Source: Triglochin maritima
Lineage: Eukaryota; Streptophyta; Magnoliopsida; Alismatales; Juncaginaceae
Assembly (NCBI GenBank): GCA_963682175.1
Contig: OY821791.1
Span: 33,292,326 to 33,356,325 of the forward strand
Reading direction: 5' to 3'
Length of the DNA stretch: 64,000 nt
Of the stretch, positions 10,946-53,245 are shown one piece after another. Under the pieces are notes generated by a model. It searched no databases. It saw nothing but the letters and a program-made list of their open reading frames with translations, and had not been told where the DNA came from. The first letter of the stretch is position 1. Each line of letters opens with the position of its first letter. The position numbers were made by a program, and so were the translations under genes.

Positions 10946-11114
10946 TTAATGCATAATTAATTTAAGAATTAATTAGATCATGCATGGAATTGGTCCATAA
11001 CTGATTTAATTCGTGGCTAAGATTATTTGTTAGCAAATAATGGATGGTTAGATGGAAGTTTGCATGAAATCATGGGCAAGAGGTTGCACATGAATAGGTA
11101 ATTTGGAGTGAACT

Positions 11115-11122
11115 TATAAATA
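11115..11122 (+). promoter_or_regulatory. TATA box of the copia 5' LTR
   Basis: TATAAATA is in a suitable place, downstream of the palindrome cluster and about 460 bp before the LTR end. The corresponding site in the 3' LTR reads TAGAAATA, so the 3' copy has lost its TATA box. Confidence 0.6.
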
Positions 11123-17207: not shown

Positions 17208-17291
17208 TATGTAATGGGGTTTACCCTAGTTATTATTGTTTTATACATTAAGAATGTATGTGAGAGAAAACTTTAATAACAAGTGGGAGAT

Positions 17292-19339
17292 TGAAGGGAA
17301 TGTGTTCTGAAAGTTTTACTTTTAAATGTCAATTATTATGAATTGAATGAGAAATCGTTTTGTTCCTTGTTTATGTTATTCGTCTTTTAGAAGTGTTAAG
17401 GAAGAGGCTCTTGGTCCTTAACCGTAGAGCTCTAAAAGATATTGGTTTACATAAAACAAAAGATATTCGCAATCATGGTAATAAACATGGGACATCTATT
17501 ACCGAGTTAAGATTGTCGTGTTGGTCATAGATCATTGTAACTCTACAAGTGAGTGACAACACGGATACACAAAAGAGGAATATATTACTTTTGTATACTG
17601 AATAGACCTAATAAGTAAAACATTATAGAATTGTATTTTCTGTGTCATTAATGTTTTACTGTGTCCTTGGTTCTTTGATATGAGACTTATATCAGATCAC
17701 TTAAGGAATGCTTGATTAGGCTAGTGTCTTGAGCTATCGATAAGTGTAGTGTAAAGACATTGGTTCGTTAAGTATGACTTTTATTGGAGAAGATAGTTAG
17801 TCAAAAGATTATCATTGCCCCTCTTAATTGAGTGATGATATTAGTGGGCCCTTTGATAAAGCAAAGTTATAATGTGCACAATGTGATTTGAGTTAAGTCA
17901 CATATTTATAACACTTAAAGAGATCAAGAAATGAATACTAATACAAAGATTACACAATACTACTTTGTGTGTATTCTTAATATCATGAGGCAAGGGACGG
18001 ACACAAGTGGTGCACTCCATCACTAAATGGATCGGGTTTTGGTTCGAGTGGAATTAAGACATCTAACTAATTGGGAGCTATAATGTGTAGCTTGATACCG
18101 CTTATAGCTTGTGATATTAAGCTCTTAATATCACTGTCAACTTAGTTTAGATCCTCCCATAGGTCACACCTCAAAACTGGGAAACAAGAAATGGGGATTT
18201 TGAGTTCATAATGTGTGTCGGGTTTCACGTAGAAAATATGACACACGGGGTTAACAAGCAAAATCAAAATTATATTGTGACTAATAACATAATTAGAATC
18301 TAAGTTAAATTCATATGTGATGTAAATATTATGGGGTGTATTGATTTATCATTACATAGGATAATATGTTACATAAGTTGTGAATTTACTACTAATCCCG
18401 AAATGTCAAATTTTGTAGGGGTTAAACCGAAATTTGACCAACTGCAAGACTGTGCAAAAACGGTCGACCGTTTACTGTTGATCGGTCGACCGAATGTTGC
18501 ACGGTCGACCGGATGTGTCTTGACCGATAACAGGGAATTTTGTTTGTTCGATTTCGGTCGACCGAATGTAATCGGTCGGTCGACCGAACATTGCGATGGA
18601 ATATTTTTGTTACGAACGGTCGACCGAGTTATTGAACGGTCGACCGAAACTTGGTTCGAGCGGTCGAGCGAACCTCCAAACGGTCGACCGGTCCAGACGG
18701 TTAATGTAGAATTAATTTAAGAATTAATTAGATCATGCATGGAATTGGTCCATAACTGATTTAATTCGTGGCTAAGATTATTTGTTAGCAAATAATGGAT
18801 GGTTAGATGGAAGTTTGCATGAAATCATGGGCAAGAGGTTGCACATGAATAGGTAATTTGGAGAGAACTTAGAAATACAAGTTATTCTCATTACCTTATC
18901 ATTTAATTCATTATCTTCTCATGCAAATTTCTCTCTCCATAATTCTCCACGAAATTTCCTTAATTCTTAAGATTAGTTTTAGTTTTCAGAGATCTTCTTC
19001 TCAAGGGAACTAAAGAGGGGTTAGTAATTGGATTCTAAACCCTATTGGAGATTGAGAGGCCAGCTCTTCTCTCTCCGATCTTGTTTAGAGTTTGGTGAAT
19101 ACTCGGAGGCATCCGGCGCAGCGACAAACATCCTCAACGTCTCCGGATCATCAAGAAGTTTTAGAGAACTTCTAGGTATGAATTTCGGAGCCCCATGTTT
19201 GTTTTAATAATGTTTTAAAACTAGTTATTGAAACAAACCGATGCATGCATGAAACAAATCATAGAAAAATTGTAATTGATCCTTATTGTGCATAAAAATT
19301 CCGAAAATATATATGTGCAATTAAACATGAAATCCTACA
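17292..19339 (+). repeat. 3' LTR of copia element 1
   Basis: 2048 bp, same length as the 5' copy, starting right after the polypurine tract and followed by the target duplication CTTTT. The downstream 615 bp (18725-19339) are included in the 9.18-kb tandem duplication and recur at 27907-28521. The TATA position is mutated to TAGAAATA. Confidence 0.93.
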
Positions 19340-23380: not shown

Positions 23381-25990
23381 CCTAATCTAGAGCTATTGCC
23401 GCAATCGTCGTCCTGGCATCCCGCTACACTTTGAGATCCACAATGAAAGGAATGTGTTCTAAAATTTTATTTTTATATATCAATTATTATGAATTGGATG
23501 TGGAAATATTTTGTTCCTTGATTATTGTATTCGTTTTTTTGGAAGTGTTAAGGAAGATGCGCTTGCTCCTTAACCATAGAGCTCTGAAATATAATAGTTT
23601 ACATAAATCAAAAGTTATTCACAATCATGGTAATTAACATGGAACATTAATTACCAAGATAAGATTGTCTTGTTGGTCATCGATTATTGTAGCTCTACAA
23701 ATAATTGACGACACGAGTATATAAAAGAGGAAAATTGTTGTTTTTATATATTGAATAGACATAACAAGTAAAATATTATGGAATTGTGTTTCGTGTCATT
23801 AATGTTTTACTATGTCTTGGATCCTAAGATATGAGACATATCTTTTCACTCAAGAAGTGCTTGATTTGATTATTGTCAAAAGCTATGATGAGTATAGTGA
23901 CAAAGGCAATAGTTGGTTGAACATGATTTGTACTGGAAAAAATAACTAGTCAAACGATTATCATTGCCCCTCTTAATTGAGTGATGATATTGGTGCGTCC
24001 CTTGATAAAGCAAAATTATAAGGTGCACAATGTAGCTTGAGTTAAGTTACATAGTTATAATTAGCTTAAAGAGATCAAGAAATGAATATAATACAAATGT
24101 GACACATTTCTACGTTTGTATATATTCTTAATATCATGAGGCAAGGGACAAACACAAGTGATGCACTCACATCACTAAATAGATCGTGTTTCGTTCGAGT
24201 GGACCAAGACATCTATGCTAATTGGGTAACTATAATGTGTAACTAGATACCACTTATAGTTTGAGATATTGAGTGTTCAATATAACTGTCAATTTAGCTT
24301 AGATCCTCCTTTAGGTCACACCATAAAATTGGGAAACAAAAAACTTGATTTTGAGTTCATATTATGTGTCGATTTCATGTGAAAATGGACACATGTGGTG
24401 AATCAATAAAATCAATATGTCACGAAAATTGACATAATTAGAATCATGGATAAATTCATTTGAGGTATATATATTATGGGGTGTAATAATTTAATATTAC
24501 ATAGGATAATATATTACATAAGATATGAGTTTGCTAAAAACCCCCAAAGATCAAATTTTGTTGGATGTAAATCTAAAATTTGACAAAGGCAAAATCAGGG
24601 CTAAAACGGTCAGCCGTTTTGGGTTCGGTCGACCAGGTTTCTCAGAAACGGTCGACCGGACAAAGATCGGATAACGCGAGTGGTTGACCGAAATTGTCCA
24701 TAGTGCCTGGACAATTGGAATCGGTCAACCAAGCGTAAACGTTCAACCGAAAGAAAATATCCAGGAGCTGCCTTGGGATATGACGGTAGACCGAAAGAGA
24801 CACGGTCGTCTAAAGAGATTTACCAGGAGAAATTTGGGTGGATCAACGGTCGACCGGAGCGAGACGTGGATCGACCAAAATTTTCTAGGGAATTTTTCTC
24901 AAGAATATCCGATCAACCGTCTAACTCACGGTCATCGAAACTTGAATAAAACTAAATGGTTCGGTCGACCGAGTGGAAATCTCAGTTCACCGAATATCAC
25001 GATTTTTGCCTGAATTATTAAGAGAATAATTAGATCATGGGTTGGATTAATTCCAGATATGATCAAACATTTTTTAGGATCCTTATGTGGCAATTTGGGA
25101 TTAATTTTAGGTGAGAAAAAGCAAGAGATCATGGCTAGAGAATAGTTCTTGATATGAGTTTGTTGGGAGCCTATAAAAGGACCCGTCATCCTACTTGTTT
25201 AAATACATGCAAAATTCTTTCTCTCCCTAATCACCCAATTAACCCATCCGAAAATTATCTTAGTATTTTAAGTTTTGGAGATAAAAATCTCAGGAGCTTT
25301 TAGAGGGGTTATTAGCTAGATTCTAAGCTTAATTAGAGATTGATTGGCTAGCTCCTTTCTCTACAATCTTGTTTAGTGTTTGGTGAACACTTGGAGGCAA
25401 ATCAACGGGCAACGAAACTCTGGATATTCTTAAAGGTTTTAGAGAACCTTTGGGTATGATCCTCTCTCTTTTGTTTATTTTAATATGTGTAGGAATGCAT
25501 GATATTAGAAGAAATATAAACATGTACATAAAATCAATGAAAATATGAAATCGATCATGTATGCTTGTATTAAATTGTTTAAAATATACACATACATAGG
25601 GACACGAAATCCTACACACAAGACCGTTCACCGCACCCTCTCCCTCTCCGCCCGCCATGTCGCTCTCCAGTTCCCGGATGACCTCCTCCTTTTTGCCCCC
25701 CCCCCCCCCCCCCCCCCCATCACTGACATCCACCTCGCCTTCGCCAACGTCGACCACGTCCTCGTCCTTGCCGACCCCACCTACGGCGCCTGCTGCGTCG
25801 GAGACCTCGTTGCCACCATCTTTGGGGCTGACTTGCTTATTCATTACGGGCATAACTGTTTGGTTCCAGTTGGGGAGAAGGTTGTGCCGACGTTGTATGT
25901 GTTTGTTGATGTTCGTATTGACGTATAGAGGTTGGTGGATGCTATGAGGGGAAGTGTTGCTGGGGAGACGCCTTGGGCTTGCTGGGACTA
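23381..25990 (+). pseudogene. DPH1: DPH1-like gene fragment, copy A, split by a solo LTR
   Basis: Joining across the solo LTR and one target duplication, the frame around 23425-25940 reads HFEIHKTVHR, then ARHVALQFPDDLLLFA, a proline run from the poly-C tract, ITDIHLAFANVDHVLVLADP, TYGACCVGDLVATIFGADLL, IHYGHNCLVPVGEKVVPTLY and VFVDVRIDV. These are the N-terminal blocks of the diphthamide synthesis subunit DPH1/DPH2, including a Cys in the YGACC block that serves as a cluster ligand in the family. The upstream bit (LELLPQ) is in another frame. A TAG follows RIDV, the remaining two thirds of the protein are absent, and the coding GC content is high. It is a dead, captured first exon or retained pseudogene. 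Confidence 0.8.
23444..25616 (+). mobile_element. Solo copia LTR, copy A
   Basis: 2173 bp starting TGAAAGGAATG and ending AAATCCTACA, flanked by the perfect target duplication CACAA (23439-23443 and 25617-25621). It is a diverged relative of the copia element 1 LTR along its whole length. It carries a CGG-palindrome cluster (24600-24990), a TATA-like CTATAAAAGG near 25172 and the hairpin AAAGGTT-TTAGAG-AACCTTT (25432-25451). No internal region follows, so the element was lost by LTR-LTR recombination. Confidence 0.93.
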
Positions 25991-27859: not shown

Positions 27860-29879
27860 AAATTCTTTTGAAATATAGAAAGTGCTATAAAATGAAGAAG
27901 TATTCATAATTAGATCATGCATGGAATTGGTCCATAACTGATTTAATTCGTGGCTAAGATTATTTGTTAGCAAATAATGGATGGTTAGATGGAAGTTTGC
28001 ATGAAATCATGGGCAAGAGGTTGCACATGAATAGGTAATTTGGAGAGAACTTAGAAATACAAGTTATTCTCATTACCTTATCATTTAATTCATTATCTTC
28101 TCATGCAAATTTCTCTCTCCATAATTCTCCACGAAATTTCCTTAATTCTTAAGATTAGTTTTAGTTTTCAGAGATCTTCTTCTCAAGGGAACTAAAGAGG
28201 GGTTAGTAATTGGATTCTAAACCCTATTGGAGATTGAGAGGCCAGCTCTTCTCTCTCCGATCTTGTTTAGAGTTTGGTGAATACTCGGAGGCATCCGGCG
28301 CAGCGACAAACATCCTCAACGTCTCCGGATCATCAAGAAGTTTTAGAGAACTTCTAGGTATGAATTTCGGAGCCCCATGTTTGTTTTAATAATGTTTTAA
28401 AACTAGTTATTGAAACAAACCGATGCATGCATGAAACAAATCATAGAAAAATTGTAATTGATCCTTATTGTGCATAAAAATTCCGAAAATATATATGTGC
28501 AATTAAACATGAAATCCTACACTTTTTGCAATTAAGTCCCTGGCCTTTTTGTAATTAGGTCTTTGAATGCTTTTATGCTTGGATGGACTTCAATTTGAAT
28601 CCCGATAATCTTGAACTCGGTCTTTATGATAGAAATGAGTCTCTTGCACGCGTTTATGCTCTGGATGTGGGTAATTTGCATTCAGGTCCCTATATTCTGT
28701 AAATAAGACTAAACACATACCTTAGTAGCATTTATTGATATAAAGTTAATCTAAATGAACGACATATGATGTAATGTATGCAATGCGTCAAATACCCCCG
28801 CACCTAGATTTTGCTAGTCCCTAGCAAAACAAAATATAAGAAGAATGAAAACAGGGAAATCCTAACTCACTTTCGTAGGAATCACGGTTGCACTTAGCAT
28901 GTGCAACAAGCCTTTAAACCCCTAAGTTTCCTTAGAGGACGAGTTTTGTCTCGTGAGGGTTTTCAGTTGACACACCCACAAAGTCTTAATTCAATATTTC
29001 ATTAATAACTCTCAATATCTCCACCTCAACCTTATACATCTCACTTAGAATTCTTGCATGCTCATTATATAAATCTAACTCATAAAAATTCTGACTTGGT
29101 CTTTGTTCCTCCAACATTCACACCACTAACCCTTCTACACATGTTATCACTTAAATTATTTTGCACGCCTCCTCTGGTGGTGAAGTATCATTCGGATCAA
29201 CCATGGCATGGATCATTCTTTTAACTTTGGGCCTTGAGTATCTTAAAGTATTTTTTTTTCCAGTGATTCAACACATTTGCTTTTTTTGACACTTTTACCA
29301 TTTTTGCATTCGTGTAGGGAGTTTGGTCGATAATCCCGAGCTGGCAGATTCAAGTTACCGGGTTTTAAGATACCCCTACGGACCAGTGACTCGAAGGCTT
29401 GAGTTTTTGTAATCATTTTGCAAAATGTGCTTTCCTCACTTTATTATTAATTTTTTTTTCTCAAGGCTTAATTGCTATTAGAAGTCCACACTTCCCGGTA
29501 TATTTTCCTCAACCTCTGCTTTTAATCAACCACTTCAAAGATTTGATTCATCCAATTTAAGTGCATACATGTCTTAAACCGTAATGAGTTATTTCTTTGG
29601 AACTTAGATTTATATCATAGTTTCTATAAGCAGAACTATATAATAAGGAACAAAAACTCAATGCAATTTGTACACGGGTTTTGGTAGTTCAATCTTAAGC
29701 TATGTCATGGAGCATTAAATAATTGATTTTTTTTCTCTTTTTTTTTTAAACAAACATATATAGATAGATAAACACCCCCCACACCTAAATCATGCATTGT
29801 CCTCAATGTATGCAAAGATAAAGCAAATGCACTTATTACCTGAGTCAACTTGCGGTAGAGGGATTGAATTTGCTCAGAG

Positions 29880-32561: not shown

Positions 32562-35169
32562 TCCTAATCTAGAGCTATTGCCGCAATCGTCGTCCTGGCA
32601 TCCCGCTACACTTTGAGATCCACAATGAAAGGAATGTGTTCTAAAATTTTATTTTTATATATCAATTATTATGAATTGGATGTGGAAATATTTTGTTCCT
32701 TGATTATTGTATTCGTTTTTTTGGAAGTGTTAAGGAAGATGCGCTTGCTCCTTAACCATAGAGCTCTGAAATATAATAGTTTACATAAATCAAAAGTTAT
32801 TCACAATCATGGTAATTAACATGGAACATTAATTACCAAGATAAGATTGTCTTGTTGGTCATCGATTATTGTAGCTCTACAAATAATTGACGACACGAGT
32901 ATATAAAAGAGGAAAATTGTTGTTTTTATATATTGAATAGACATAACAAGTAAAATATTATGGAATTGTGTTTCGTGTCATTAATGTTTTACTATGTCTT
33001 GGATCCTAAGATATGAGACATATCTTTTCACTCAAGAAGTGCTTGATTTGATTATTGTCAAAAGCTATGATGAGTATAGTGACAAAGGCAATAGTTGGTT
33101 GAACATGATTTGTACTGGAAAAAATAACTAGTCAAACGATTATCATTGCCCCTCTTAATTGAGTGATGATATTGGTGCGTCCCTTGATAAAGCAAAATTA
33201 TAAGGTGCACAATGTAGCTTGAGTTAAGTTACATAGTTATAATTAGCTTAAAGAGATCAAGAAATGAATATAATACAAATGTGACACATTTCTACGTTTG
33301 TATATATTCTTAATATCATGAGGCAAGGGACAAACACAAGTGATGCACTCACATCACTAAATAGATCGTGTTTCGTTCGAGTGGACCAAGACATCTATGC
33401 TAATTGGGTAACTATAATGTGTAACTAGATACCACTTATAGTTTGAGATATTGAGTGTTCAATATAACTGTCAATTTAGCTTAGATCCTCCTTTAGGTCA
33501 CACCATAAAATTGGGAAACAAAAAACTTGATTTTGAGTTCATATTATGTGTCGATTTCATGTGAAAATGGACACATGTGGTGAATCAATAAAATCAATAT
33601 GTCACGAAAATTGACATAATTAGAATCATGGATAAATTCATTTGAGGTATATATATTATGGGGTGTAATAATTTAATATTACATAGGATAATATATTACA
33701 TAAGATATGAGTTTGCTAAAAACCCCCAAAGATCAAATTTTGTTGGATGTAAATCTAAAATTTGACAAAGGCAAAATCAGGGCTAAAACGGTCAGCCGTT
33801 TTGGGTTCGGTCGACCAGGTTTCTCAGAAACGGTCGACCGGACAAAGATCGGATAACGCGAGTGGTTGACCGAAATTGTCCATAGTGCCTGGACAATTGG
33901 AATCGGTCAACCAAGCGTAAACGTTCAACCGAAAGAAAATATCCAGGAGCTGCCTTGGGATATGACGGTAGACCGAAAGAGACACGGTCGTCTAAAGAGA
34001 TTTACCAGGAGAAATTTGGGTGGATCAACGGTCGACCGGAGCGAGACGTGGATCGACCAAAATTTTCTAGGGAATTTTTCTCAAGAATATCCGATCAACC
34101 GTCTAACTCACGGTCATCGAAACTTGAATAAAACTAAATGGTTCGGTCGACCGAGTGGAAATCTCAGTTCACCGAATATCACGATTTTTGCCTGAATTAT
34201 TAAGAGAATAATTAGATCATGGGTTGGATTAATTCCAGATATGATCAAACATTTTTTAGGATCCTTATGTGGCAATTTGGGATTAATTTTAGGTGAGAAA
34301 AAGCAAGAGATCATGGCTAGAGAATAGTTCTTGATATGAGTTTGTTGGGAGCCTATAAAAGGACCCGTCATCCTACTTGTTTAAATACATGCAAAATTCT
34401 TTCTCTCCCTAATCACCCAATTAACCCATCCGAAAATTATCTTAGTATTTTAAGTTTTGGAGATAAAAATCTCAGGAGCTTTTAGAGGGGTTATTAGCTA
34501 GATTCTAAGCTTAATTAGAGATTGATTGGCTAGCTCCTTTCTCTACAATCTTGTTTAGTGTTTGGTGAACACTTGGAGGCAAATCAACGGGCAACGAAAC
34601 TCTGGATATTCTTAAAGGTTTTAGAGAACCTTTGGGTATGATCCTCTCTCTTTTGTTTATTTTAATATGTGTAGGAATGCATGATATTAGAAGAAATATA
34701 AACATGTACATAAAATCAATGAAAATATGAAATCGATCATGTATGCTTGTATTAAATTGTTTAAAATATACACATACATAGGGACACGAAATCCTACACA
34801 CAAGACCGTTCACCGCACCCTCTCCCTCTCCGCCCGCCATGTCGCTCTCCAGTTCCCGGATGACCTCCTCCTTTTTGCCCCCCCCCCCCCCCCCCCCATC
34901 ACTGACATCCACCTCGCCTTCGCCAACGTCGACCACGTCCTCGTCCTTGCCGACCCCACCTACGGCGCCTGCTGCGTCGGAGACCTCGTTGCCACCATCT
35001 TTGGGGCTGACTTGCTTATTCATTACGGGCATAACTGTTTGGTTCCAGTTGGGGAGAAGGTTGTGCCGACGTTGTATGTGTTTGTTGATGTTCGTATTGA
35101 CGTATAGAGGTTGGTGGATGCTATGAGGGGAAGTGTTGCTGGGGAGACGCCTTGGGCTTGCTGGGACTA
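32562..35169 (+). pseudogene. DPH1: DPH1-like gene fragment, copy B
   Basis: Duplicate of 23381-25990, with the same solo LTR inside. The only difference noticed is the poly-C run (34878-34897, 20 C instead of 23); removing three C drops one proline and keeps the frame. The TAG after RIDV is shared. Confidence 0.8.
32626..34798 (+). mobile_element. Solo copia LTR, copy B
   Basis: Duplicate of 23444-25616, again flanked by CACAA (32621-32625, 34799-34803). It arose by the segmental duplication and not by a second insertion, because flanks and target duplication are identical to those of copy A. Confidence 0.93.
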
Positions 35170-35490: not shown

Positions 35491-36869
35491 TAGTGTGTGT
35501 TCAAATGTGCTCATCAAAACATGTTATACATGAAATCCATAAAACTCAACTCAAAACGCTGCCTCCACATGAAATAAGATAAAACCTTATCATTAAAACA
35601 TACAAGACAATAATTGAAATGAAGCTAATATGTTCACAATGCATCATGACTCAAATCCAACTACGTCTCCACATGAAATAAGATTTATCACAATCATTAA
35701 AGCATACAAGACATTAATTAAAATAAAGCCACATGAGCACATGCATGCACATGTCTTGTTTCCTTCTTCTACTCCTTCCTTATCCTTACTAATCATTCCC
35801 CATAAAATAGGCTAACTAATCTAAGCATGTGCTAAGCTTCACGCAAGAGAATTAACACATCAAAGAAAAGAGTAAAATCTCATTAGATGGTTATGGAATT
35901 CATGTAAGGCTCAAAGGATTAAGATTAACACACACTAATCTATCACATGATCAAATCACCTTCTTCTCCACCCCCCCCCCCCCCCCCCCAATGGGGATGG
36001 ACTACTCTCTACTCATCTCTAAACTAAGGAAAGCATAAAATAATATAAACCCATAATGGAAATTCAGAAAATTAAATGAATGAAAAGAAGCACAAAGGAA
36101 ATGGCATCAAAGGAAATACATCAAGATAAAGAATAGAAAACTAAACTATATTAAAAGAAAGATTACAATGTTGCTCCTCCTCTCCTCCTCTACACTACTA
36201 AACAAGAAATAAAACCTACTCTACTAAACAAGAAAAGAAACTAACCTAAAGAGGAGAGGGAGGAAGAAGAAGAAAGGAGGCATTACAAGTGTATTTATAG
36301 AAGTTTAGAGGGTTTGGATGGATCTGACGGTTGTAAATCAGATCTGGACGTCCTAGAATGCTCTGATCTGACAACCCGACCCGCGACCAAAATTTGAGAG
36401 TCAAACTCTTAACCGGATCCGTCAGTGATGGATTTTAATCCGCCACTGGCGGATCACTTTCTCTGATTGACTCCAAATTTTAATCATGGCTTTAGTTCAC
36501 ATAATAAACACGTGGGATGTGCCTAGAGCTATTGGTTCAAGCCGGTCATTTGGTTTTAATTGTTGAATTATTCCTTAGGTTCAGGAGATTCTGGACTTTT
36601 GCAACCAACATATTTTTCTATACGCTTAAGTCCCTATACGTTTTCACTTGGGTCCTTCCTGAGTTACAATCCAATCCTTGGGCATTACAAACAGGTCCAG
36701 AACCTTCCAAATCAGTCCATTCTTCTTGCGTTTAGGTCATTTTTCTCTTCATTTCTCTTCTTTATTGCCTAAACCCTGAAACACATCAAACAAACACTCG
36801 AGTAGCACAAATATGGGGTAAAATAAAGGATATATTGTATGAATGTAATGTATGATATGCTACTAATCA
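35491..36869 (-). mobile_element. Gypsy family-2 LTR, truncated, copy B
   Basis: Duplicate of 26312-27685 with five more C in the poly-C tract (35971-35989, 19 C). Followed by the duplicate CACTA-type end at 37043. Confidence 0.6.
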
Positions 36870-37092
36870 CCAACTGAATACATTTGGTCGGAAAATTCAC
36901 GCCAAAATTAACGCCGATGGTTGTTATCCATTGGTGGAAGTAAACACCAATACAGGCAACACCGATGACAAGTATAAACACTAATAGATGAACACCTTTG
37001 TGACGGATATGATTCGTCAGTGAATGCTTGTTCTGTGGTAGTGAAATTCTTTTGAAATATAGAAAGTGCTATAAAATGAAGAAGTATTCATA

Positions 37093-37490
37093 TTACTGCC
37101 TTGTTTGGAGCACCAGGAAATAGGTATGATTCTTGTGTTACACATGGAAATTCATATTTTGGTTAGGTATCTTTCTTCCAAGAGTGGATGACCCTCGATT
37201 GGACCTATGTTGCCTAAACAGGCCCTTTGGGCAACATTGGTCCTCTTTGTTTCATACTAATATTTTTTAGTTACACCTCGCTTGGTTTATGTGACATTTC
37301 GCTATAAATTGATCAATTTTAAATTAAACTTAATCTACAATTGCGTGGTAGTTGAACTCAAAATTATACTTGTTTCCAAAGTCATGGTCTTGGAAGTTCC
37401 TCCATTAACTAAAATTGTAGTTTTTTTTTGTAAAAACAGGTCTACTCCACTCACTAAGCCAACTCATAAAGATTGGACATTTGAGAACAT
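37093..37490. other. Unduplicated flank, no gene
   Basis: First unique sequence after the tandem duplication. GCCTTGTTTGG near 37098 and a reversed GGCCTGTTTAGGCAAC near 37215 could be ends of a small MITE, but no target duplication was found. A 70-codon frame (37282-37494) is not recognised. Confidence 0.3.
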
Positions 37491-38172
37491 CTAGCCTAGA
37501 CAGGGTACCGGGTCGGGCCGACCCTGCCTGGCCCTGGTCCCTTGGCCCATTCAAGCCTGGCACAAGAAGCAGGATCCCCAACACAGCCTGGCCCATGGCG
37601 CGTGGCAGACAGGGCCGAGCTAGCACGTCGGGTTCGGTTTTGGGTTTGTGTCGGTCGGGTTTGTGGGTATTATTTTTTGTACCAAAGATATTCAAATAAA
37701 TTATTTTCTACTCAAATAAAATAATTATACTAAATAAGATAAAAAATAAAAAAAATGCAAATGAGAAGCGAAGAAAAGGTATCGACGTGTTGCGAATTCG
37801 GACGAATCAGACAGTAACTTTATGCCTTTGCTCTAACTCGATTCACTACCAATACAATTAGAACACTTTGTGAAACTTTTGAAAGATTAAGTAAGAAAAT
37901 TGAAGAGATAAAGAAGATTAAGTGTGAAAAATATATAGAATGACAGCTTTATATAGACTTCTGTATTGGTATTTTGGTAGCTTTTTTAAAAAAATTAAAA
38001 AAATACCTTCAAAGGTCGTGTCGGGCTGGCCTGACACAGTGGAGCAGAGCCCACCTGGACCCATGCTAGGCCTGGTACGATTACCATTCCACAGACCTAG
38101 GTTGTCATTCCAACGTGTCAGGTTGGGTTGGAATCGTGTCTTCCCGGCACAACCTGGTACCAAGGTCTAATC
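37488..38172 (+). mobile_element. hAT-like non-autonomous element
   Basis: Both ends carry GC-rich imperfect inverted repeats: left TAGCCTAGACAGGGTACCGG and right, reversed, TAGATTAGACCTTGGTACCA. Subterminal GGGTCGGGCC and CGGGCTGGCC blocks are typical of plant hAT elements. The middle is AT-rich and non-coding. An 8-bp target duplication is not clear. Confidence 0.5.
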
Positions 38173-38840
38173 TAGGACACTCTTATCCATAAGCTCCTCA
38201 CAACCTAGGACAAAACCTTTATGTCATTGTTTGGACGTTACACACGTCCTGATTTCATCCTCATTTTTCTATTGCAAATGAATATTCTAGTCCTTGACTA
38301 TGGATGTATGGTTCAGATAAATATCTAATCCTGACAGAAGAAGTGATAATAGGGAAATAGGAGTTAAAAAGAGACGGAAAGAGACTTAGAGGTTAGGTTT
38401 TGGGACATAGAGAAAGAAAAATCTTTTTCATTGCATATAGAGTTTGTTTTTAGATCAAAAGGTTAGTACTTATAAGCATAATAGTCACACGTGTCTTTCA
38501 GTTCACGTCTGGAATCCTGTTTGGGGTTTTGAATAAATTTACTTCAATGCTTACAATAGTCTACATTTGGGCAATTAAGGATATTTTACTGAATTGCTAA
38601 ACATCGCCCCAAAATTACTTAAATCGCCCCTTGAAATTATCATTTTGCCCTTCTCTCATTTCTACTGCTATAACGCGACATTTTACCCTCCTATCACACA
38701 TCTCTCTTCATATTCCTCTTATAATCATAAAAAATAATGTTTTGGAGGTCAGTAATGAACCAACGGACGCCCCAGTGTACTCGAATCTGGTAAAACATCT
38801 AACATCTTTTTAATAAAAAAATAATAAAAAATAATAAAAA

Positions 38841-39069
38841 ATTACGGGCGTCTGACGGAGCCGCCCCCACGTAGGAGGGGGCGTCTGGCTAAGACGCCTT
38901 CCCCATGGGGGCGGCGTTTTACCCAGACGCCTTACCCATCGGGGAGGCGTTTTACCCAGACGCTCCGCCCTTGGGACAGGCGTCTGTGTAAGACGCCTCC
39001 TCCATGGGGGAGGCGTCTTAGCCAGACGCCCCCTCCTACGTGGGGGCGGCTCCGTCAGACGCCCGTAAT
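38841..39069. repeat. Palindromic 33-bp unit array 1
   Basis: Units of 33 bp, each with GGCGTCTGGCTAAGACGCC-type dyad (or its inverse) followed by a second short palindrome such as CCCCATGGGGG. The whole array is also one large inverted repeat: it opens ATTACGGGCGTCTGACGG and closes with the exact reverse complement. Confidence 0.9.
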
Positions 39070-39350
39070 TTTTTATTATTTTTTTGAAAAAATAATTGAT
39101 TATAAATTTAGATAATTGTTAAATTAACTGAATTGCTATTCATCGCCCCAAAATTACTTAAATCGCCCTAACAAATTACCTTTTTGCCCTTGACCTTATT
39201 TAGGCTTATATAAGTCACAATTTCACTTTTTTACCACCGTTTTCTCTTCCTATACCTCATGCACAATATCTCGAATGTCTCGGAAACCAGAAAAGCAACC
39301 AGCGGTTCCCCCGATGTATATTTTTTCAAAAAAAAAAAACCACTTACCTG

Positions 39351-39472
39351 GGCGTCTAAGGCAGACGCCCCTCCATAGGGGGGAGGCGTCTGTCGGAGAC
39401 GCCTCCCCCCTATGGGGAGGCGTCTACGACAGACGCCTCCTCCCTATGGAGGGGCGTCTGCCTTAGACGCCT
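39351..39472. repeat. Palindromic 33-bp unit array 2
   Basis: Four GGCGTCT/AGACGCC dyads with CCTCCATAGGGG-like palindromes between them, again arranged so that the two halves are reverse complements. Confidence 0.88.
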
Positions 39473-40005
39473 CCCCCTATTTTTTTTTTAATTTGGTTAA
39501 AATGGTAATTTTCAGGGGCGATTTAAGTAATTTTTGGGTGATGTTTAGTGTATACTAATGGGGTTGTTATGTACAGTGGATGGGTAAGATGATTTGGGCT
39601 GTGTAGCCGATCCTGGCGAAGAAGGACGAGATGTCAGACGAGTACAGCAGAGCTGCTTGTGTAGATGATGGTCACTTGATACAGGCGTGACATTCTCAGT
39701 TGGGCATCCCCGACCATGATTAGGTTGATAAGTAGTTAGAGTATTAGTATCTTACTCTTATTATTGTATTCTCGTTTCTGTCGTACACTTACTATTCGTA
39801 CTTGTATTTGTTTATCTGTCGTACGTTTGTTTTCGTATTTGTGTTTGTTTCTCTGTCGTACTGTTATTTTTTTATGATGAGTATTCTACCTTTTAATTTT
39901 TTTGATAATCAATTCACACTATATAATGTACAAACATATTAAATTTGATAATGTAAACCCTATTTTCTATTAATATTAAAAAAAACCCCAAAAAAAATTT
40001 TTTTT

Positions 40006-40210
40006 TAGGGGGAGGCGTCTGCCGGAGACGCCTCCCCATAGGAGGGAGGCGTCTGCCGGAGACGCCTCCCCATAGGGGGGCGACGTCCGCCACAGACGCC
40101 CGACCCAAGGGTCGGGCGTCTGTGTCAGCCGCCTCCCCCCTATGGGGAGGCGTCTCCGGCAGACGCCTCCCTCCTATGGGGAGGCGTCTCCGGCAGACGC
40201 CTCCCCCTAA
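40006..40210. repeat. Palindromic 33-bp unit array 3
   Basis: Six dyads (GGCGTCTGCCGGAGACGCC and variants) separated by CCTCCCCATAGG-like segments; symmetrical about GACCCAAGGGTCGGG near 40107. Flanked by A- and T-tracts. Confidence 0.88.
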
Positions 40211-40328
40211 AAAATTTGTTTTTTAAGTTTCTTAAGGGCAATTTGGTAATTTCAAGGGGCGATTTAAGTAGTTTTGGGGCGACGTTTAGTAGTTCCCTAA
40301 ATTAATTAATAAGTTAATAATTACTATA

Positions 40329-40362
40329 TTCGGATGACCGATACCTCTTCGGTACACCGAAA
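40329..40362 (+). other. Sirevirus-LTR-like scrap inside element A
   Basis: CGGATGACCGATACC(T)CTTCGGTACACCGAA is almost the same as 44317-44347 of the Sirevirus LTR (one base different over about 32). Confidence 0.6.
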
Positions 40363-40363
40363 A

Positions 40364-40588
40364 TTCAAAAATTTCCAGATCCAACAATTTCAAAATCCAA
40401 AAAATTTCCAGGGGGCGCTGCCCCCTTGCCACCCCCGCCACCTCACCGGCGAGGTGGAATGCCGCTCGCTCACCGGGGAGCGAGACCCCCGAACGACCTG
40501 TCGAGGTGGTATTTGTAAGTCATGATGTTTTACCACCGGGGGATTTGGAACTTTAAAAATGTTGGATCTGGAATTTTTTTGAATCTTC
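40364..40588. mobile_element. Small inverted-repeat element inside A
   Basis: Starts ATTCAAAAATTTCCAGATCC and ends with its imperfect reverse complement (GGATCTGGAATTTTTTTGAAT). The core holds GGGGGCGCTGCCCCC and CCTCACCGGCGAGG palindromes. Looks like a 225-bp MITE; no target duplication identified. Confidence 0.5.
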
Positions 40589-40710
40589 ATCACTTGTAAA
40601 AAAACTCATTGTAATCCAACCGGTTACCACCGAAAATTTGCAAAGAAACGTCAAATAATTTGAGATAACACACCGTATAATTTTAATTTGACAAAAAACA
40701 TTAAAAAAAA

Positions 40711-40933
40711 CGGGACGTCTGGCTAAGACGCCTGTACCATCGTGGAGGCGTCTGGCTAAGACGCCTCCACCATGGTCGAGGCGTCTTAACCAGACGCCTA
40801 GACAATGGTATAGGCGTCTGGCTAAGACGCCTGTACCATCGTGGAGGCGTCTGGCTAAGACGCCTCAACGATGGTGGAGGCGTCTTAGCCAGACGCCTCC
40901 ACGATGGTACAGGCGTCTTAGCCAGACGCCCGT
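40711..40933. repeat. Palindromic 33-bp unit array 4
   Basis: Seven clear units of exactly 33 bp, GGCGTCTGGCTAAGACGCC plus TGTACCATCGTGGA-type spacers; the orientation of the inner GGCTA/TAGCC flips along the array. On the minus strand the same DNA translates as an 11-residue repeat (RRLSQTPPRWY and variants) downstream of the ATG at 40991. Confidence 0.9.
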
Positions 40934-41201
40934 GTCGGAAAAAAAAATCCACCTCCGTTACTTCGCCTGATCTAGGTGTTTCGCCAGACATTTTCGTGGT
41001 GTTGGTACTAGGAATGTTAGTAAAACTGAGTCAATAACCTTGTTTAAAGACACGGGACGATATGGGTATTAAATATATTGTTAAGGGCAATTTGGTAATT
41101 TCAAGGGGCGATTTAAGTAGTTTTGGGGCGACGTTTAGTAGTTCCCATATTTTACGTGTAACTATTTTTCTCAAGAAACAAGTTTCCTCTCGTTAATAGA
41201 C

Positions 41202-41876
41202 ATGGGTAATAGGCCGGCCCGGTTGGTTAAGCGGTTCTCGCCAGGGCCGGGTATTTGGAGGTATTTTTTATATTTTTTGAGGTATTTTAATTAGATATTT
41301 TTAAAATAAAAAATTAAGGGAACTACTATTCGTCGCCGGAAAACTACTTAAATCGCCCCAAAAATGACTTTTTTGCCCTTAACAAATCAATTAATACTCA
41401 TTTCGTCTCGTGTCTTTAACCAATGTGTTTGACTCAGTTTTATTCACATTCCAAGTACCAACACCACGAAAATGGTATCGACGTGTTGCGGTTCCGGCAG
41501 CCGCCCTCTCGTTGGGTCGGGCGTCTCCCGCGGACCCAAAAATGTTTTTTTTTAAATTAATTAAAATAAACAAGGCAATTTACCAGATGTGAGTAGTCCG
41601 GGGTGTCCGCTGGTTCTTTTCCTGGCCTCCGAGACATTCTATTTGGTGAATAGAAGAGTGATATGAAGAGAAAGTTGTGTTAAAAGAGTGAAATGAAGAG
41701 TTATATAAGTAGAAAGGGTAGAGGGGCAAAATGGTAATCTTACGAGCGATTTAAGTAGTTTTACGGCGACGAATAGCAGTTCAGAAAATTAATTATTTGA
41801 GCATGTTGTATCAAGCTGCACGGGCCCATGCCCCCTAATGAGCGCAAGCCTAGCACGACATGCCGGCCCATTACTC
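41202..41876 (+). mobile_element. hAT-like element split by hairpin-family element
   Basis: Left end ATGGGTAATAGGCCGGCCCG and right end, reversed, TTGAGTAATGGGCCGGCATG form imperfect terminal repeats with hAT-style GGCCGG content. The middle is occupied by the element at 41318-41784. Confidence 0.45.
41318..41784 (+). mobile_element. Hairpin-family TIR element E (467 bp)
   Basis: Left terminus GGGAACTACTATTCGTCGCC and right terminus reversed CTGAACTGCTATTCGTCGCC, with the 8-bp target duplication AAAATTAA (41310-41317, 41785-41792). Its left subterminal 130 bp match the inverted right subterminal region of element A, and its right part matches the left part of A and B. Two short frames start inward: ATG at 41472 (plus) and at 41637 (minus, MSRRPGKEPADTPDYSHLV). 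Only a degenerate GGGCGTCTCCC remains of the hairpin array. Confidence 0.85.
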
Positions 41877-42081
41877 AAGTCTTCTCATTAAGCATGAAAA
41901 TTCAATTTTGTGAGGGACATGAAGCATCTTGTTTGGATGTTGAGTTTCATGTGAGACTCAAAACGTCTCATCACGTCAAGAGGTACCGAGCTACCTTCCC
42001 TTCCATACAATGTGTAAAGCCTTGTTTCTCATGTCGCTCCCGACCTTTCTGGGCTCCAAAATATTTTCTCTCCTCCAAAAT

Positions 42082-42738
42082 TAAGAAAGAAATATGTTAT
42101 AAAAGTTACTTTTATATATCAATTATTATGAATTAAATGTGCAAACATTTGTTCCTTGATTACCATCTTTTGGAAGTGTTAAATAAGAAGTTCTTGATCC
42201 TTAACCGTAGAGCTCTAAAAGATAAGGGTTTACATAAATTAAAAATAATTCACGATCATGGTAATTGACATAAAACATTAATTACCGAGGTAAGATTGTC
42301 GTGTTGGTTAAAGATTATTGTAGCTCTACAAATATTTAACGACACGAGTATATAAAAGAAGAAAACGATTAACTTTCATATATTGAATAGACTTAATCAG
42401 TGAAACATTATGGAATTGTGTTATGTGTCATTAATGTTTCACTGTGTCGTGAATCCTAAGATATGAGACTTATATCTTTTCACATAAGGAGTGTATGATT
42501 TTATTATTATCAAAAGCTATTGATGAGTATAGTGATAAACGTATTAGTTGGTTATGAAAGGAATATATTCTAAAAGTTTTACTTTTATATGTCAATTATT
42601 ATGAATTGGATGTGTAAAAATTTTGTTTCTTGAATTAGGTATTCATCTTTTAGAAGTGTTAAGGAAGAGGTTCTTAGTCCTTAACCGTAGAGCTCTAAAA
42701 CATAATGGTTTACATGAATCAAAAGTTATCCAAAACAA
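42082..42738 (+). repeat. Two partial copia LTRs in tandem
   Basis: 42082-42554 and 42555-42738 both match the first part of the copia element 1 LTR (shared blocks ATCAATTATTATGAATT and CTTAACCGTAGAGCTCTAAAA). The second begins with the LTR start TGAAAGGAATA. They are independent truncated fragments. Confidence 0.75.
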
Positions 42739-43221
42739 CCTCGATTTAACCTTGTTCCGACAACAAACAGAAAATGAAACTCTACAAGACTACAACCAAT
42801 CAACCGATAAAACAACACACAACACCTACGATCTGTGGGATCCAATCATCATACTAACGCCACCACTTTAACTGCATGGTAAAACAATTAAACACAAACA
42901 TGTTAAAGATCCAATTATCATACTACAACATCTACGAAACAGAGGAGGAGGTCGGAAGTCGCGGCTGCGACGACGGTGGTGGTGGAGGTGGAGGGTCGTG
43001 GAAGTGGAGGAAGACGGCTGCAGTGACTATGGTGGTTGTGGAGGTCGGAGATTTGTTGGAGGGTCGCGGAAGTGGAGGAAGACGATTGTGGTGACGGCTG
43101 GTCGCAGAGGTCGGAGTTTGGTCAGAGGGTCACGGGGTTAGCTAGGGTTTGACTGGTTTTTGTCAGGATAAAGGAAAAAAAACAAAGGGAAAGGTTCCAA
43201 ATAAAGACCTATAGACGTCGG
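42739..43221. other. GGN-rich stretch ending in a CACTA subterminal motif
   Basis: Contains a glycine-codon-like GGT/GGA tract (42955-43060) in a 72-codon frame without a recognised domain. The last bases CTATAGACGTCGG match the CACTA subterminal motif of 3425-3720, cut off by the Sirevirus LTR. Confidence 0.35.
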
Positions 43222-44811
43222 TGTAAGTTGATCGATCACTAATCTAGAGGGGGATGAATAGATTATCTCCTAATTTTCTAAAACAATTGCACAATTAAAA
43301 TAGTAAGAGAAAGAATGCAAACCACAAGATCACTTTGGAGATTTATAGAGGTTCGATCACACCACCGTGTTCTAGTCCTCTCCTCAAGTTCCGATCGATC
43401 CTCTGATCCCTACTTGGGAATTCACTATTATCTTCGTTCCGAGTCGAAGATAAACCCTCTTACAATTGGAGCCTTGCGAACACCCTCGACTTGCTCGGAT
43501 CTCCTCTCACAACCCGAGAGGGTGCTTCCTCGAAGCTTTACAACAAAATGGAAATTGAAAGAGGTTGTTGAACTCTAACTTGAATGCACTCAAGGGTTGG
43601 AATTTAGCTTGGAGTGAATTTAATGGAAGTTTGAGAGTTGGTGGAGCTTTGAAGGCTTGATGATTGAGAGCACAAGAGTAGGATTGATTTTTTTGGCAAG
43701 AAGAAGATGAATGTGTCTCTTAAATGAAGCTTATATAGCCTGCAACACAAATAGAGCCGTTTTGGTGAGTTGATGAGGTTTGGACCAAAACGGAACAAGA
43801 AGTGACTTAAGTTTGGACCAAATTCAGAGCATATTCGGTCGACCGGGACACCAACGGTTGTCCGACAAAATGTGGGTTTATTGGTCAGATTGAAGAACTC
43901 GGTTGACCGAATATTCACCAACTTTCAGTAACTTTTTTCTAATATCGACCAATTAAATTCGGTTGTTCGAGAAGATTTCGGATCACCGTTCCAATTGAAC
44001 AGTAAAGAATTGTTGTGACTTGGTGATCATGTTCGGTCTACCGTTGCAAGGTCGGTTGACTGATACATGTGCTGGTTTTCTGCTGACATTGCCTGGGAAA
44101 TTGGTTTATCAATAACGGTCAAAATATTACGTGGAAAAATAGTCGTTATGTTTTCATTGACAACAAGTCTTCGGTAAACGAAGGTTAATCGGTAGACCGA
44201 TATGGACTTTCAAAGGTTGTTGCTAAACGACAAAAGATAAGTCTGTTGGAGTTAGTTTGTGCCACGTGGGGCCAATAAGATGAAGTCGTTTAGTCCAAAA
44301 GACACAAGAGAAGTTCGGATGACCGATACCCCTTCGGTACACCGAATAGAGATATCCAGAGAAATGTCGAAGTTACTGAGGATAAGGAAACGGTTGACCG
44401 GGTAGCGGTCGGTACGCCGACCCAAGGATTCCTGGAAGATCAAGAAGTTACTGTCTCTAAGATCACAGTTCACCGAGGGAAACTCGGTCATCCGTATGGA
44501 ACAAGTTCAGTAGACCGAGAGGCAAACGGTCGACCGACAGAGACAGGTTTATCCTTTTGTGCATCAAGTGTACATTTGATCCTATAACTTAAATAAATAA
44601 AAAATTACATAAGTCCTTGAGCTTTGATTACAAGTCTTGCGCCTTTATCTTGAAGTTGATTAGTTTCTTGGTTTGAGCACCTGCAATGTTAGGAATACAC
44701 AATATCTATGCAATTTGACAATATCATGTGTGTGATGTGCTAATTGGAGTTGTGCATAATATTAGTTTGTTAATCATCAAAATTAAGATTTAAAGGGCCA
44801 AAAAGCCAACA
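43222..44811 (-). repeat. Sirevirus 3' LTR
   Basis: On the minus strand it starts TGTTGGCTTTTTGGCCC and ends AACTTACA; 1590 bp. About a dozen CGG/CCG palindromes (CGGTCGACCG, CGGATGACCG, CGGTACACCG and others) fill 43840-44530. A TATA box CTATATAAGC follows at about 43731-43740. Confidence 0.82.
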
Positions 44812-44970
44812 ATCTCCCCATTTTTGATGATGACAAACTAATGTCAAATTGTGTAAGTGCTCCCCCTATCAATATGCAAAAGATATGTTAACTCCCCCTT
44901 ACTCAATACATGTGTTTCATATATTTGATTTAGGCATGTTGTATCCATTTGTTCTCCCCCTTTTGACATC
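44812..44970 (-). promoter_or_regulatory. Sirevirus multiple polypurine tracts
   Basis: Minus strand: TTTGTCATCATCAAAAATGGGGAGATT next to the LTR (only the last part is the tract), then AAGGGGGAG at about 44885-44895 and again at 44953-44962, plus AGGGGGAG near 44862. Repeated tracts here are a Sirevirus trait and prime plus-strand DNA synthesis. Confidence 0.7.
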
Positions 44971-45154
44971 CATCAAAAAGAATGGAATAATCAAAGATTA
45001 TGACAAAAAGACACACAATATGTAAATGAAATTGCATTTCTTAAAAGGGAAGATAAGGCATAAAGCCGATACAAAAACAAACACACCAGAAAGCAAATGA
45101 CAAATGAAACAAACACCATAAACAACAAGAAGCAAAACAAGCAACAAAGATAGT

Positions 45155-46030
45155 CTAGTTGTCCGGCTTGTTCATGTCTCGAAGAAGCTCCATAATTTCA
45201 TTTTGGAAGTCGAGAAAGGCTTGACGAGAATCTCCAACCACACAAATTTGATTGTTGATCTCATTGAGCAAGGTTGACGTCTCCAACTGCAATGATTGGA
45301 ATTGGGAGGTGAGGTCTTGAATACCTTGATAGTTACAATTCTCTAAACTCCGAACGTCATGGATCTCTTTGCAATTCCGGTCCAAGAGCTTCTCGTGACG
45401 ATAGGCCCAAGCCAGTTGGTTCCATTGAGCATTGGCACCGGATGGCCATTCGGGACGAGTGTGTCTCCGTGGACCACGAGTCAAGCTAGGATCCCAATTA
45501 GGATTCACCTCGGCATCGGATGGAGGAGGAGACCAATGTGGAGCTTCGGTTGAGACTCCATCATCCTCATTTTCAGAGGAATCATCTTCCGATTCTTCTT
45601 CAAGTGCTTGCTTCCCCGAGCGCATTCGTTTGTGTGTATATTTGTAGATGGCCGTCTTGGAGGATTTCAAAAGATCACGGTAAAATTTGATGTTGAAGTG
45701 ATCTATGACCAGCCAGATTAACATAGGAAAAAGGACAAAGTTGCGCTTCTTCCGAGCAATGTAGATCATATGGTTGATGATGAATAAGGGCCAATTAGTG
45801 TGAGTACCGGTGGAGAGGTTGAAGAGGCACTTCATCATTTGGTGGCTAAGTTTTTCGTTGTGCCCTTTGCGCACAAAAAGGTTGGTGGAAATGAAACGAC
45901 AAAGAATATGGCCAACAACCGGAAGATGAGGAATGCCAAGTTTGCTATCTTGAGGAACATCCGGTTGAGTCACCTCCAAAAATTTACTCATAGAGCCACA
46001 AACTTCTTCCCAAGAGAGGTTGTAGATATC
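45155..46030 (-). pseudogene. Sirevirus envelope-like ORF, distal part
   Basis: The frame continues the ORF at 52749-52161 after the inserted composite; the first 79 bp are the duplicated target. Blocks HILCRFISTNLFVRKGHNEK and FNLSTGTHTNWPLFIINHMI resemble the conserved region of plant Sirevirus envelope-like proteins. A hydrophobic segment FVLFPMLIWLVIDHF follows, then an acidic stretch (EEESEDDSSENEDD) and a C-terminal coiled-coil-like part. Stop near 45155. The role in plants is unknown; no fusion or entry activity is established for this family. Confidence 0.75.
45952..46030. repeat. 79-bp target repeat, left copy
   Basis: From GAGGAACATCCGG to GTAGATATC; 78 of 79 bases equal 52161-52239 (T versus G in AAAATT(T/G)ACTC). 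The two copies flank the composite insertion and both encode the same piece of the envelope-like ORF. Confidence 0.93.
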
Positions 46031-52852: not shown

Positions 52853-53245
52853 AAATATATAGAAGATGAGAGAATATGGGAGATTTCAAGCATGAAAACC
52901 CGTGTCCAACGGTCATCCATAATTGTCTCGGAAGACCGTTGGACCAGTTCCAACGGCTAGAAAAACGAACAATTCGGTCGACCGAACGGGCTTCGGTATA
53001 CCACCAAAAGGAAGAGAGTAAGTGAAGAAGGTTTACTGGATCTTGGGAACGGATGACCGAATCTGGGATGATCGTCCGTTTCTAGATGAACAGGGAAGTT
53101 TGCTAATTTTAGCATACCAAAAGTGTCGGTCAACCGGATATGAAACAGTGTACCGAAATGGTGAATCCAGACCAAGTTTGGATCCCTGTCCAGACACAAT
53201 CCAGTTAACTGAATGGTGTTCGGTCATCCGTCCTGTGTGGACAGA
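52853..53245 (-). promoter_or_regulatory. Possible internal promoter of the envelope-like ORF
   Basis: Between the RNase H end and the ATG at 52749 lie several CGG-core palindromes or half-palindromes (CGGTCGACCG at 52976, CGGATGACCG, CGGTCAACCGG, CGGTCATCCG; 52970-53235) and then a TATA-like TCTATATATTT (about 52855-52865), about 105 bp before the ATG. The LTR has the same order: palindromes, then TATA box. Confidence 0.5.

Follow-up and report, generated by a model that had tools for sequence, protein, structure and literature searches.

A foldback-type TIR transposon family with arrays of palindromic 33- to 34-bp units in Triglochin maritima

In a contig of Triglochin maritima, three related elements (A, B and E) were found within the 64,000-nucleotide stretch that was analyzed, hereafter the window. 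With a probability of roughly 0.55, we regard them as non-autonomous members of a single foldback-type TIR family, the Mutator superfamily being the most likely assignment; half-sites in this family would be held by constraint, and the arrays that carry them shaped by strand switching. All the evidence on this family comes from one locus. Its four arrays separate two forces, namely a sequence constraint on 7-bp half-sites and, in the spacers, pairing with the sequence left unconstrained. To our knowledge, it is not settled how foldback transposons acquire and keep up their repeat arrays; if the present pattern holds true across copies, template switching in a plant genome would have left a natural record in this family, whose transposase could be sought by means of a defined candidate binding site.

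The original prediction of three related TIR elements flanked by perfect 8-bp duplications was confirmed for 3/3 elements, all of which carried related TIRs at both ends (Table 1). The TIRs could be aligned over about 62-69 bp at all six ends of A, B and E; they were built of three imperfect copies, in tandem, of a repeat of about 21 bp, and the ends were asymmetric, with CTGAA on one side and GGGAA on the other. The left subterminal sequence was common to all three elements and the right one to A and E, with 83% complementarity between 40989-41101 of A and 41362-41474 of E. Without the nested B, element A measures 1380 bp. Element B is a composite, as a seventh, right-type TIR is present in its interior. 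No additional TIR copies were obtained in the rest of the 64-kb window.

Table 1. Positions of the elements, their ends and the hairpin arrays in the window.
Feature	Position	Strand	Remarks
TSD of A, left copy	38581..38588	.	ATATTTTA
Element A	38589..41146	+	2558 bp, counting nested B and the second copy of the B TSD; TIR pair and perfect 8-bp TSD
Left TIR of A	38589..38652	+	CTGAA end
Left subterminal region of A	38653..38825	+	Alignable to the left side of B and, as reverse complement, to the right side of E
Hairpin A_L	38826..39084	.	7 units, period 33 (38847-39063), and a 21-bp mirrored AT-rich flank per side; 114/129 pairs, outer 74 perfect
TSD of B, left copy	39120..39127	.	TAAATTAA
Element B	39128..40297	+	Nested within A, length 1170 bp; paired TIRs, perfect 8-bp TSD
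Left TIR of B	39128..39191	+
Hairpin B_L	39351..39471	.	4 units, period 34; 56/60 pairs, outer 30 perfect
Internal right-type TIR in B	39499..39548	-	90% identity to left TIR of A over 50 bp; terminal bases diverged
B interior	39557..39985	+	No coding homology detected (Pfam, two conceptual pieces)
Hairpin B_R	40001..40214	.	6 units (40014-40201), intervals 34/34/33/34/34, and a 13-bp mirrored flank per side; 101/107 pairs, outer 80 perfect
Right TIR of B	40234..40297	-	GGGAA end; 98.6% identity to right TIR of A over 69 bp
TSD of B, right copy	40298..40305	.
A interior	40306..40692	+	33 bp also present at 44314-44346; extra hairpin 40373-40573, without relation to the 33-bp unit
Hairpin A_R	40714..40930	.	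7 units, period 33; tandem duplication of 3 units (99 bp) included; 97/106 ungapped pairs (40716-40928), outer 58 perfect, one mismatch just beyond
Right subterminal region of A	40934..41077	+
Right TIR of A	41083..41146	-	3 imperfect tandem repeats, about 21 bp each
TSD of A, right copy	41147..41154	.
TSD of E, left copy	41310..41317	.	AAAATTAA
Element E	41318..41784	-	467 bp; backbone like that of A but inverted; no arrays
E TIR, GGGAA end	41318..41380	-
Degenerate unit remnant in E	41487..41538	.	4/14 mismatches, then a partial unit with 3
E TIR, CTGAA end	41720..41784	-
TSD of E, right copy	41785..41792	.

The motif GGCGTCT-N5-AGACGCC, allowing up to two mismatches, occurred 24 times in the 64-kb window, and all 24 were located within the four arrays (0.03 expected by chance), in agreement with the four GC-rich arrays predicted for A and B. 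Units of exactly 33 bp had been described; this period was obtained in A (12/12 intervals) but not in B, where 7 of the 8 intervals measured 34 bp and the remaining one 33. The second palindrome ascribed to each unit was real, albeit imperfect, with 89 of 140 spacer pairs being self-complementary against 39.6 in shuffles. Distances between the arrays and the nearest element end are 258 bp (A_L) and 223 bp (B_L) on the left and 216 bp (A_R) and 96 bp (B_R) on the right; A_L is 73% complementary to A_R over 241 bp, and B_L 84% to B_R over 95 bp. A and B thus show the composite inverted arrangement of foldback-type elements, tandem repeats lying near each end. Each array was also a large inverted repeat in itself, as had been claimed: folded as DNA, the four arrays reached z scores from -20.1 to -27.8 relative to dinucleotide-shuffled sequences, and 0/200 shuffles were as good for any of the arrays. 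The predicted self-similar folding was supported at the scales of unit and array. The A interior carries its own, different hairpin and was therefore set aside as a part of the array system.

Among the half-sites, 40/48 were exactly GGCGTCT, and 9 of 336 positions deviated. Half-site identity was 0.92 within and 0.926 between arrays, whereas spacer stems reached 0.591 within and 0.493 between arrays (random expectation 0.391). The identity of the N5 segment was 0.738 within vs 0.51 between arrays, i.e. its drift was array-specific. A short divergence time could account for part of the half-site conservation. Because the half-site sequence is kept while the paired spacers drift, there is fairly strong reason to take the GGCGTCT half-sites as sites bound by a dimeric protein, which could be the transposase or else some accessory protein. 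The arrays might instead have no binding function and be neutral palindromic minisatellites in a TIR transposon, their likeness resulting from tandem duplication, unequal exchange and hairpin copying. Element E, having an intact TSD without arrays, is in line with this, as is the 99-bp tandem duplication that makes up part of A_R, and switching that perfects the arms could repair unit-level dyads too. Neutral arrays nevertheless appear rather unlikely, since spacers and half-sites both lie in stems and would undergo the same process, and yet their identities between arrays are 0.493 and 0.926, respectively; the array-specific drift of N5 argues against neutrality as well.

The distribution of mismatches between the arms was polar. 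All 34 ungapped arm mismatches fell in the half nearer the centre, and 0 of 100,000 simulated placements were as extreme; when the measure was taken over whole arrays, the outer halves held 2/35 mismatches, and a mismatch of A_R lay at the outer edge. After shuffling of unit order and orientation, as many pairs were obtained in 16 (A_L), 80 (A_R), 282 (B_L) and 6 (B_R) of 20,000 shuffles. For A_R the control on the outer run was uninformative (20,000/20,000 shuffles), and likeness averaged 0.97 both in its mirror pairs and in its other unit pairs. Arms that are perfect outside and divergent inside are the pattern expected of hairpin-templated copying. In the flanks, the TTAC..GGGCGTC junction left of A_L resembles the left side of B_L (TTACCTGGGCGTC) and has a mirror copy on the interior side, and AGACGCCTCCCCCTA, found right of B_R, recurs right of B_L, with a mirror copy on the interior side. 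These short similarities suggest that the terminus-facing arm was copied inward in two of the four arrays, and the polarity together with the flank pattern fits hairpin-templated strand switching.

The same polarity could in principle arise from palindrome instability, if the arms were recent inverted duplications and replication spared no copy whose centre was intact. Palindromes are often fragile sites, as stated in an excerpt of PMC7999016. The centres of all four arrays were imperfect, and in A_L (0.89 vs 0.81) and B_L (0.95 vs 0.87) the innermost mirror pairs still slightly exceeded the average likeness of the other unit pairs. The innermost mirror pair of B_R went the other way (0.79 vs 0.86), though its outer pairs were identical. 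Moreover, stabilization of palindrome centres usually leaves deletions, whereas all four arms aligned ungapped up to the centre, with substitutions only. We consider instability a doubtful source of the polarity.

With A, B and E taken as non-autonomous foldback copies, their movement would have depended on a transposase encoded elsewhere in the plant genome. We infer, with moderate confidence, that the arrays grow and stay palindromic via hairpin-templated strand switching in replication or repair: after folding back at a point a few tens of bases away from the dyad, the nascent strand would copy one arm outward, leaving perfect outer arms and an unconverted centre. It is a tentative idea, with the odds against it, that the family builds and renews its own paired-site arrays in this manner, new GGCGTCT/AGACGCC sites in the correct orientation being added on the interior side; the number of sites could then rise without unequal crossing over, with selection holding the half-site sequence. 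In template-switch mutation, reverse-complement copying is described, in an excerpt of PMC8794818, as making or perfecting stems, and it may leave the loop unchanged; that account concerns RNA genes, while the present case is a transposon with perfect outer runs of 30-80 bp.

The occurrence of TIRs with a TSD of fixed length, 8 bp in 3/3 elements, places A, B and E among the class II TIR transposons. They probably belong to the Mutator superfamily, judging from TSD length, TIR style and analogy. An 8-bp TSD would equally suit hAT or another superfamily with duplications of this length, and subterminal repeats are likewise typical of hAT. However, the hAT TIR is short and begins with YARNG, to which CTGAA/GGGAA termini do not conform, and about 65 bp is long for a hAT TIR; an assignment other than Mutator is hence held to be unlikely. 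For Mutator, the TSD lies within the range of 8-11 bp (PMC3903597) in all three elements. The TIRs, at about 65 bp, are shorter than the 100-500 bp of plant TIR-MULEs, but MULEs with shorter TIRs also exist (PMC3903597), and an excerpt on the plant MULE family MuTAnT gives a TIR mean of 47 bp (PMC4486113). CACTA was rejected, as the elements show CTGAA/GGGAA termini and an 8-bp TSD against CACTA termini and a 3-bp TSD. The region was overlapped by 51 open reading frames of at least 35 aa. A Pfam search with two conceptual pieces of the B interior gave no family above the cut-off, and no transposase or coding relative was found in them; in a protein search for mis-annotated copies in other plants, made with one open frame of A_R, none of 417 candidates (E ≤10) was such a copy. 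The F-box reading frame matched one protein, from Cichorium (31%, E 2e-5), whereas the Copia frame matched 2819 proteins at E ≤1e-100; the 120 listed reached up to 83%, and those with a named source came from many flowering plants.

It is improbable that the arrays were selected as RNA, as a transcribed hairpin locus for siRNAs or as miRNA-like precursors: the folds were very stable (z -29.8 for A_R as RNA) and several Rfam miRNA families matched the arrays with low E-values, but all 35 Rfam matches listed were below the gathering score (best 76 vs 268 bits) and were scattered over numerous unrelated families, frequently on both strands, as could happen with any long hairpin, and the pairing is explained by copying at the DNA level. 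A microRNA precursor was accordingly rejected, with 0/35 of the matches listed in 36000-46000 reaching the gathering threshold. Transcripts spanning the arrays would form dsRNA, and a role of the arrays as a siRNA source is possible as a by-product.

The structure had been held to be unlike every named kind of element, which was not supported, as foldback Mutator elements with arrays are known (Muta1, Tm1 and Tetris). The kind of element is thus already known, while the hairpin-array layout was not found described in the literature searched. One or more of four unit strings occurred in 66 open-licence full texts, and none of the 20 listed among these concerned a transposon, judging by titles and the starts of abstracts; TIR strings matched 2 papers, both on bacteria. 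TIR 20-mers gave 0 matches in the viral contigs and genome contigs searched. Array patterns gave 0 matches in viral contigs with one pattern search and 2 with another; both were taken as chance, since only three half-sites were matched in each, without the TIR core.

Excerpts of the cited papers provide the following comparisons. Foldback Mutator elements with TSDs of 8-10 bp and internal or subterminal repeats have been described (PMC5225508, PMC3169594, PMC4079207). Muta1 and related foldback MULEs of Aedes aegypti share with the present family TSDs of 8-9 bp and subterminal tandem repeats, and Muta1 derivatives likewise have common ends with variable repeat number and interiors (PMC5225508). 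The Muta1 repeats are 12 bp long with 3-4 bp spacers, in a 145-bp TIR (PMC5225508); in the present family, every unit of 33-34 bp is a dyad, and every array forms an inverted repeat on its own. Tm1, a Mutator/Foldback element of root-knot nematodes, resembles the present family in its composite tandem-repeat TIRs, its asymmetric terminal motifs and its mostly non-autonomous copies, but its commonest TSD is 9 bp, its repeat unit is 13-15 bp and the excerpt makes no mention of dyad arrays (PMC3169594). Among plants, FARE of Arabidopsis is a foldback element now placed among MULEs, with the palindromic structure in the element ends and not in separate self-complementary arrays (PMC4486113), and rice foldback transposons contain tandem repeats of <90 bp inside the TIRs (PMC10794571); both were compared by description. 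Tetris of Drosophila virilis, like the present family, has no known transposase, a TSD of 8-10 bp and internal tandem arrays, but its repeats are AT-rich and about 220 bp long; its authors liken them to extra transposase-binding sites in Galileo (PMC4079207). An analogy of working is offered by CACTA elements (Spm/En, Tgmt*), where multiple short subterminal motifs near the ends are bound by TNPA-like proteins (PMC2613891), although CACTA termini and the 3-bp duplication are absent from A, B and E.

The constrained half-sites, the outer-to-inner polarity of mismatches and the presence in E of the subterminal backbone of A minus the arrays came in addition to what the original prediction had described. 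Given the intact TSD of E, transposition perhaps does not require the arrays, unless E lost them once it had inserted.

The window has abundant LTR-retrotransposon reading frames and is the DNA of a flowering plant. Three related elements lie at 38589-41784 (Table), A and E being neighbours and B being nested within A, and perfect 8-bp duplications flank all three; were the sequence made of A and T alone, a single 8-bp match would still have a chance of ~0.4% (0.5 to the 8th power), so three of three cannot be put down to chance. Terminal inverted repeats (TIRs) of ~65 bp, composed of three imperfect tandem repeats of ~21 bp each, were present at all six element ends, and a seventh, right-type copy was found inside B; BLAST (E up to 0.01) found no further copies elsewhere in the window. 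The outermost five bases were unlike at the two ends (CTGAA versus GGGAA, or near these), and such asymmetric terminal motifs are shared with the Tm1 Mutator/Foldback family as described in the cited passages (PMC3169594).

Subterminal regions could be aligned between A left, B left and the reverse complement of E right, and A right was alignable with E left as inverted pairs; E thus belongs with A and B in kind but lies in the opposite orientation, lacks arrays and retains a single degenerate unit. B combines an A-type left subterminal region with a right array close to the right TIR and the extra internal TIR; tandem TIRs are known among plant MULEs (PMC3903597). The element region was overlapped by 51 ORFs with a minimum length of 35 aa; no coding relative emerged from a Pfam search with two conceptual pieces of the B interior, which matched no family above its cut-off.

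Coordinates of the elements, their arrays (L, left; R, right) and neighbouring repeats in the window
Feature	Position	Units	Self-pairing (pairs)	Outer perfect run (pairs)	DNA folding z-score	Remarks
Element A	38589-41146					
Element B	39128-40297					
Element E	41318-41784					
Array A_L	38826-39084 (units, 38847-39063)	7	114/129	74	-26.8	
Array B_L	39351-39471	4	56/60	30	-20.1	
Array B_R	40001-40214 (units, 40014-40201)	6	101/107	80	-25.1	
Array A_R	40714-40930	7	97/106	58	-27.8	
Seventh TIR copy	39499-39548					right-type, inside B
CGGTNNACCG clusters	10706-10935, 18461-18690, 24649-24971, 33831-34153, 43836-44536, 52975-53136					33/34 sites
Long repeats	9536-11269, 17291-19024, 23443-24592, 27907-28206, 32625-33774					spacing 7755 and ~9180 bp; several 98-100% identical
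Tandem array	63433-63997					170-bp unit, 3.4 copies; extends nearly to window end

The unit GGCGTCT-N5-AGACGCC, with up to 2 mismatches, occurred 24 times in the window against 0.03 expected, and all 24 copies lay inside the four arrays; every in-phase unit was counted, the degenerate unit of E being held separate. The period was 33 in A (12/12 intervals) and 34 in B (7/8 intervals). Exact copies of the 7-bp half-site (GGCGTCT) numbered 44 in the window, 41 of them within 38589-41784. Units were identified through their half-sites, which leaves a selection effect in these counts.

Across the 24 units 9 of 336 half-site positions deviated from consensus. Exact half-sites accounted for 40 of 48, and the other eight fell into five variant forms, all of which retained the CG. 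When left arms and centres only were compared, so that mirrored copies were not counted twice, mean half-site identity was 0.92 within and 0.926 between arrays, while the outer seven spacer bases gave 0.591 and 0.493 (random 7-mers of the same composition, 0.391) and the five central bases of the unit (N5) 0.738 and 0.51 (random, 0.359). The spacers were nevertheless self-complementary at 89 of 140 pairs, against 39.6 (sd 5.3) in shuffles, with none of 20,000 as high. Because half-sites and spacers both lie in stems, a process preserving pairing alone does not explain letters kept in the one and lost in the other, and this difference is taken as the best sign of a putative binding site.

Every array paired with itself, ungapped, about a single centre. 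All 34 arm mismatches fell in the half nearer the centre, at a mean relative distance from it of 0.175 versus 0.481 expected (0/100,000 simulated placements as low), although arm ends set by ungapped extension are biased towards matching and the simulation left out only the last three positions; whole arrays without flanks had 2 outer versus 33 inner mismatches. As a stronger control, unit order and orientation were shuffled 20,000 times per array. As many pairs were reached by 16 (A_L), 80 (A_R), 282 (B_L) and 6 (B_R) shuffles, and as long an outer run by 4, 20,000, 277 and 2, respectively, the A_R run being uninformative (run = 1) because the whole-array measure meets a mismatch at the second base. 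The innermost mirror pair scored 0.89 versus a mean of 0.81 for other unit pairs in A_L, 0.95 versus 0.87 in B_L, 0.79 versus 0.86 in B_R and 0.95 versus 0.97 in A_R. The centre is thus clearly no better than unrelated units only in B_R, A_L and B_L being intermediate; since A_R is also a 99-bp tandem duplication, its mirror pairs taken together did not exceed its other pairs in similarity.

The A_L palindrome reaches 21 bp into the AT-rich flank. Its left side looks native and its right side copied, since the left flank prolongs a TAATAAAAAA repeat and the left junction, TTAC..GGGCGTC, resembles the left side of B_L (TTACCTGGGCGTC); the right side of B_R likewise looks native because its junction AGACGCCTCCCCCTA is met again on the right of B_L. 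In our reading, which draws on these two short junctions rather than on a formal test, the apparently native side faces the element terminus in these two of the four arrays. The pattern would suit template switching, a process whereby the nascent or complementary strand serves for a short time as the template for replication, so that stems can be created or perfected (PMC8794818).

A transposase encoded elsewhere may bind the TIR repeats, and the same transposase or an accessory protein might bind the half-site arrays, by analogy with TNPA, which recognises Spm/En subterminal repeats (PMC2613891), and with Galileo foldback repeats, for which a similar binding role is cited as suggested (PMC4079207). 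Hairpin-templated copying would supply and perfect the arrays, and their deletion would yield E-like copies. Transcripts across the arrays would be predicted to form dsRNA; none of the 35 Rfam matches listed reached threshold. Foldback elements are mostly Mutator (PMC4079207), and both animals and plants have examples that combine 8-10 bp duplications with internal tandem repeats (PMC3169594, PMC4486113, PMC4079207, PMC5225508, PMC10794571); among the matches listed in the open-licence PMC literature, none described dyad units of 33-34 bp in arrays that are each an inverted repeat in their own right.

Since the period of 33 is divisible by three, several frames on each strand stay open through the arrays at 38847-39063 and 40714-40930. 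The resulting ORFs of ~100 aa contain 11-residue repeats and might be mistaken for proteins in annotation; one frame used as a protein query had no relative among 417 candidates. A separate hairpin in the A interior (40373-40573), whose ends resemble CCAGATCCAAC and which includes several GC-rich stem-loops, is possibly another small inserted element (40366-40575 folded as RNA, MFE -89 kcal/mol).

The window contained the 10-bp palindrome CGGTNNACCG (mostly CGGTCGACCG) 34 times, compared with an expectation of 0.2, the lone site outside clusters being at 40350. This is a second element class, unrelated to A, B and E, likewise with clustered CG-rich palindromes. Its first two clusters flank Copia-type reading frames (12944-17207) and so may be in LTRs. 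The A interior may contain a fragment of another element, since 40329-40361 has 33 bp in common (97% identical) with 44314-44346, a region with CGGTNNACCG motifs. The long repeats between 9536 and 33774 could be accounted for by LTRs together with a large duplication of recent date, and the 170-bp tandem array is possibly a satellite.
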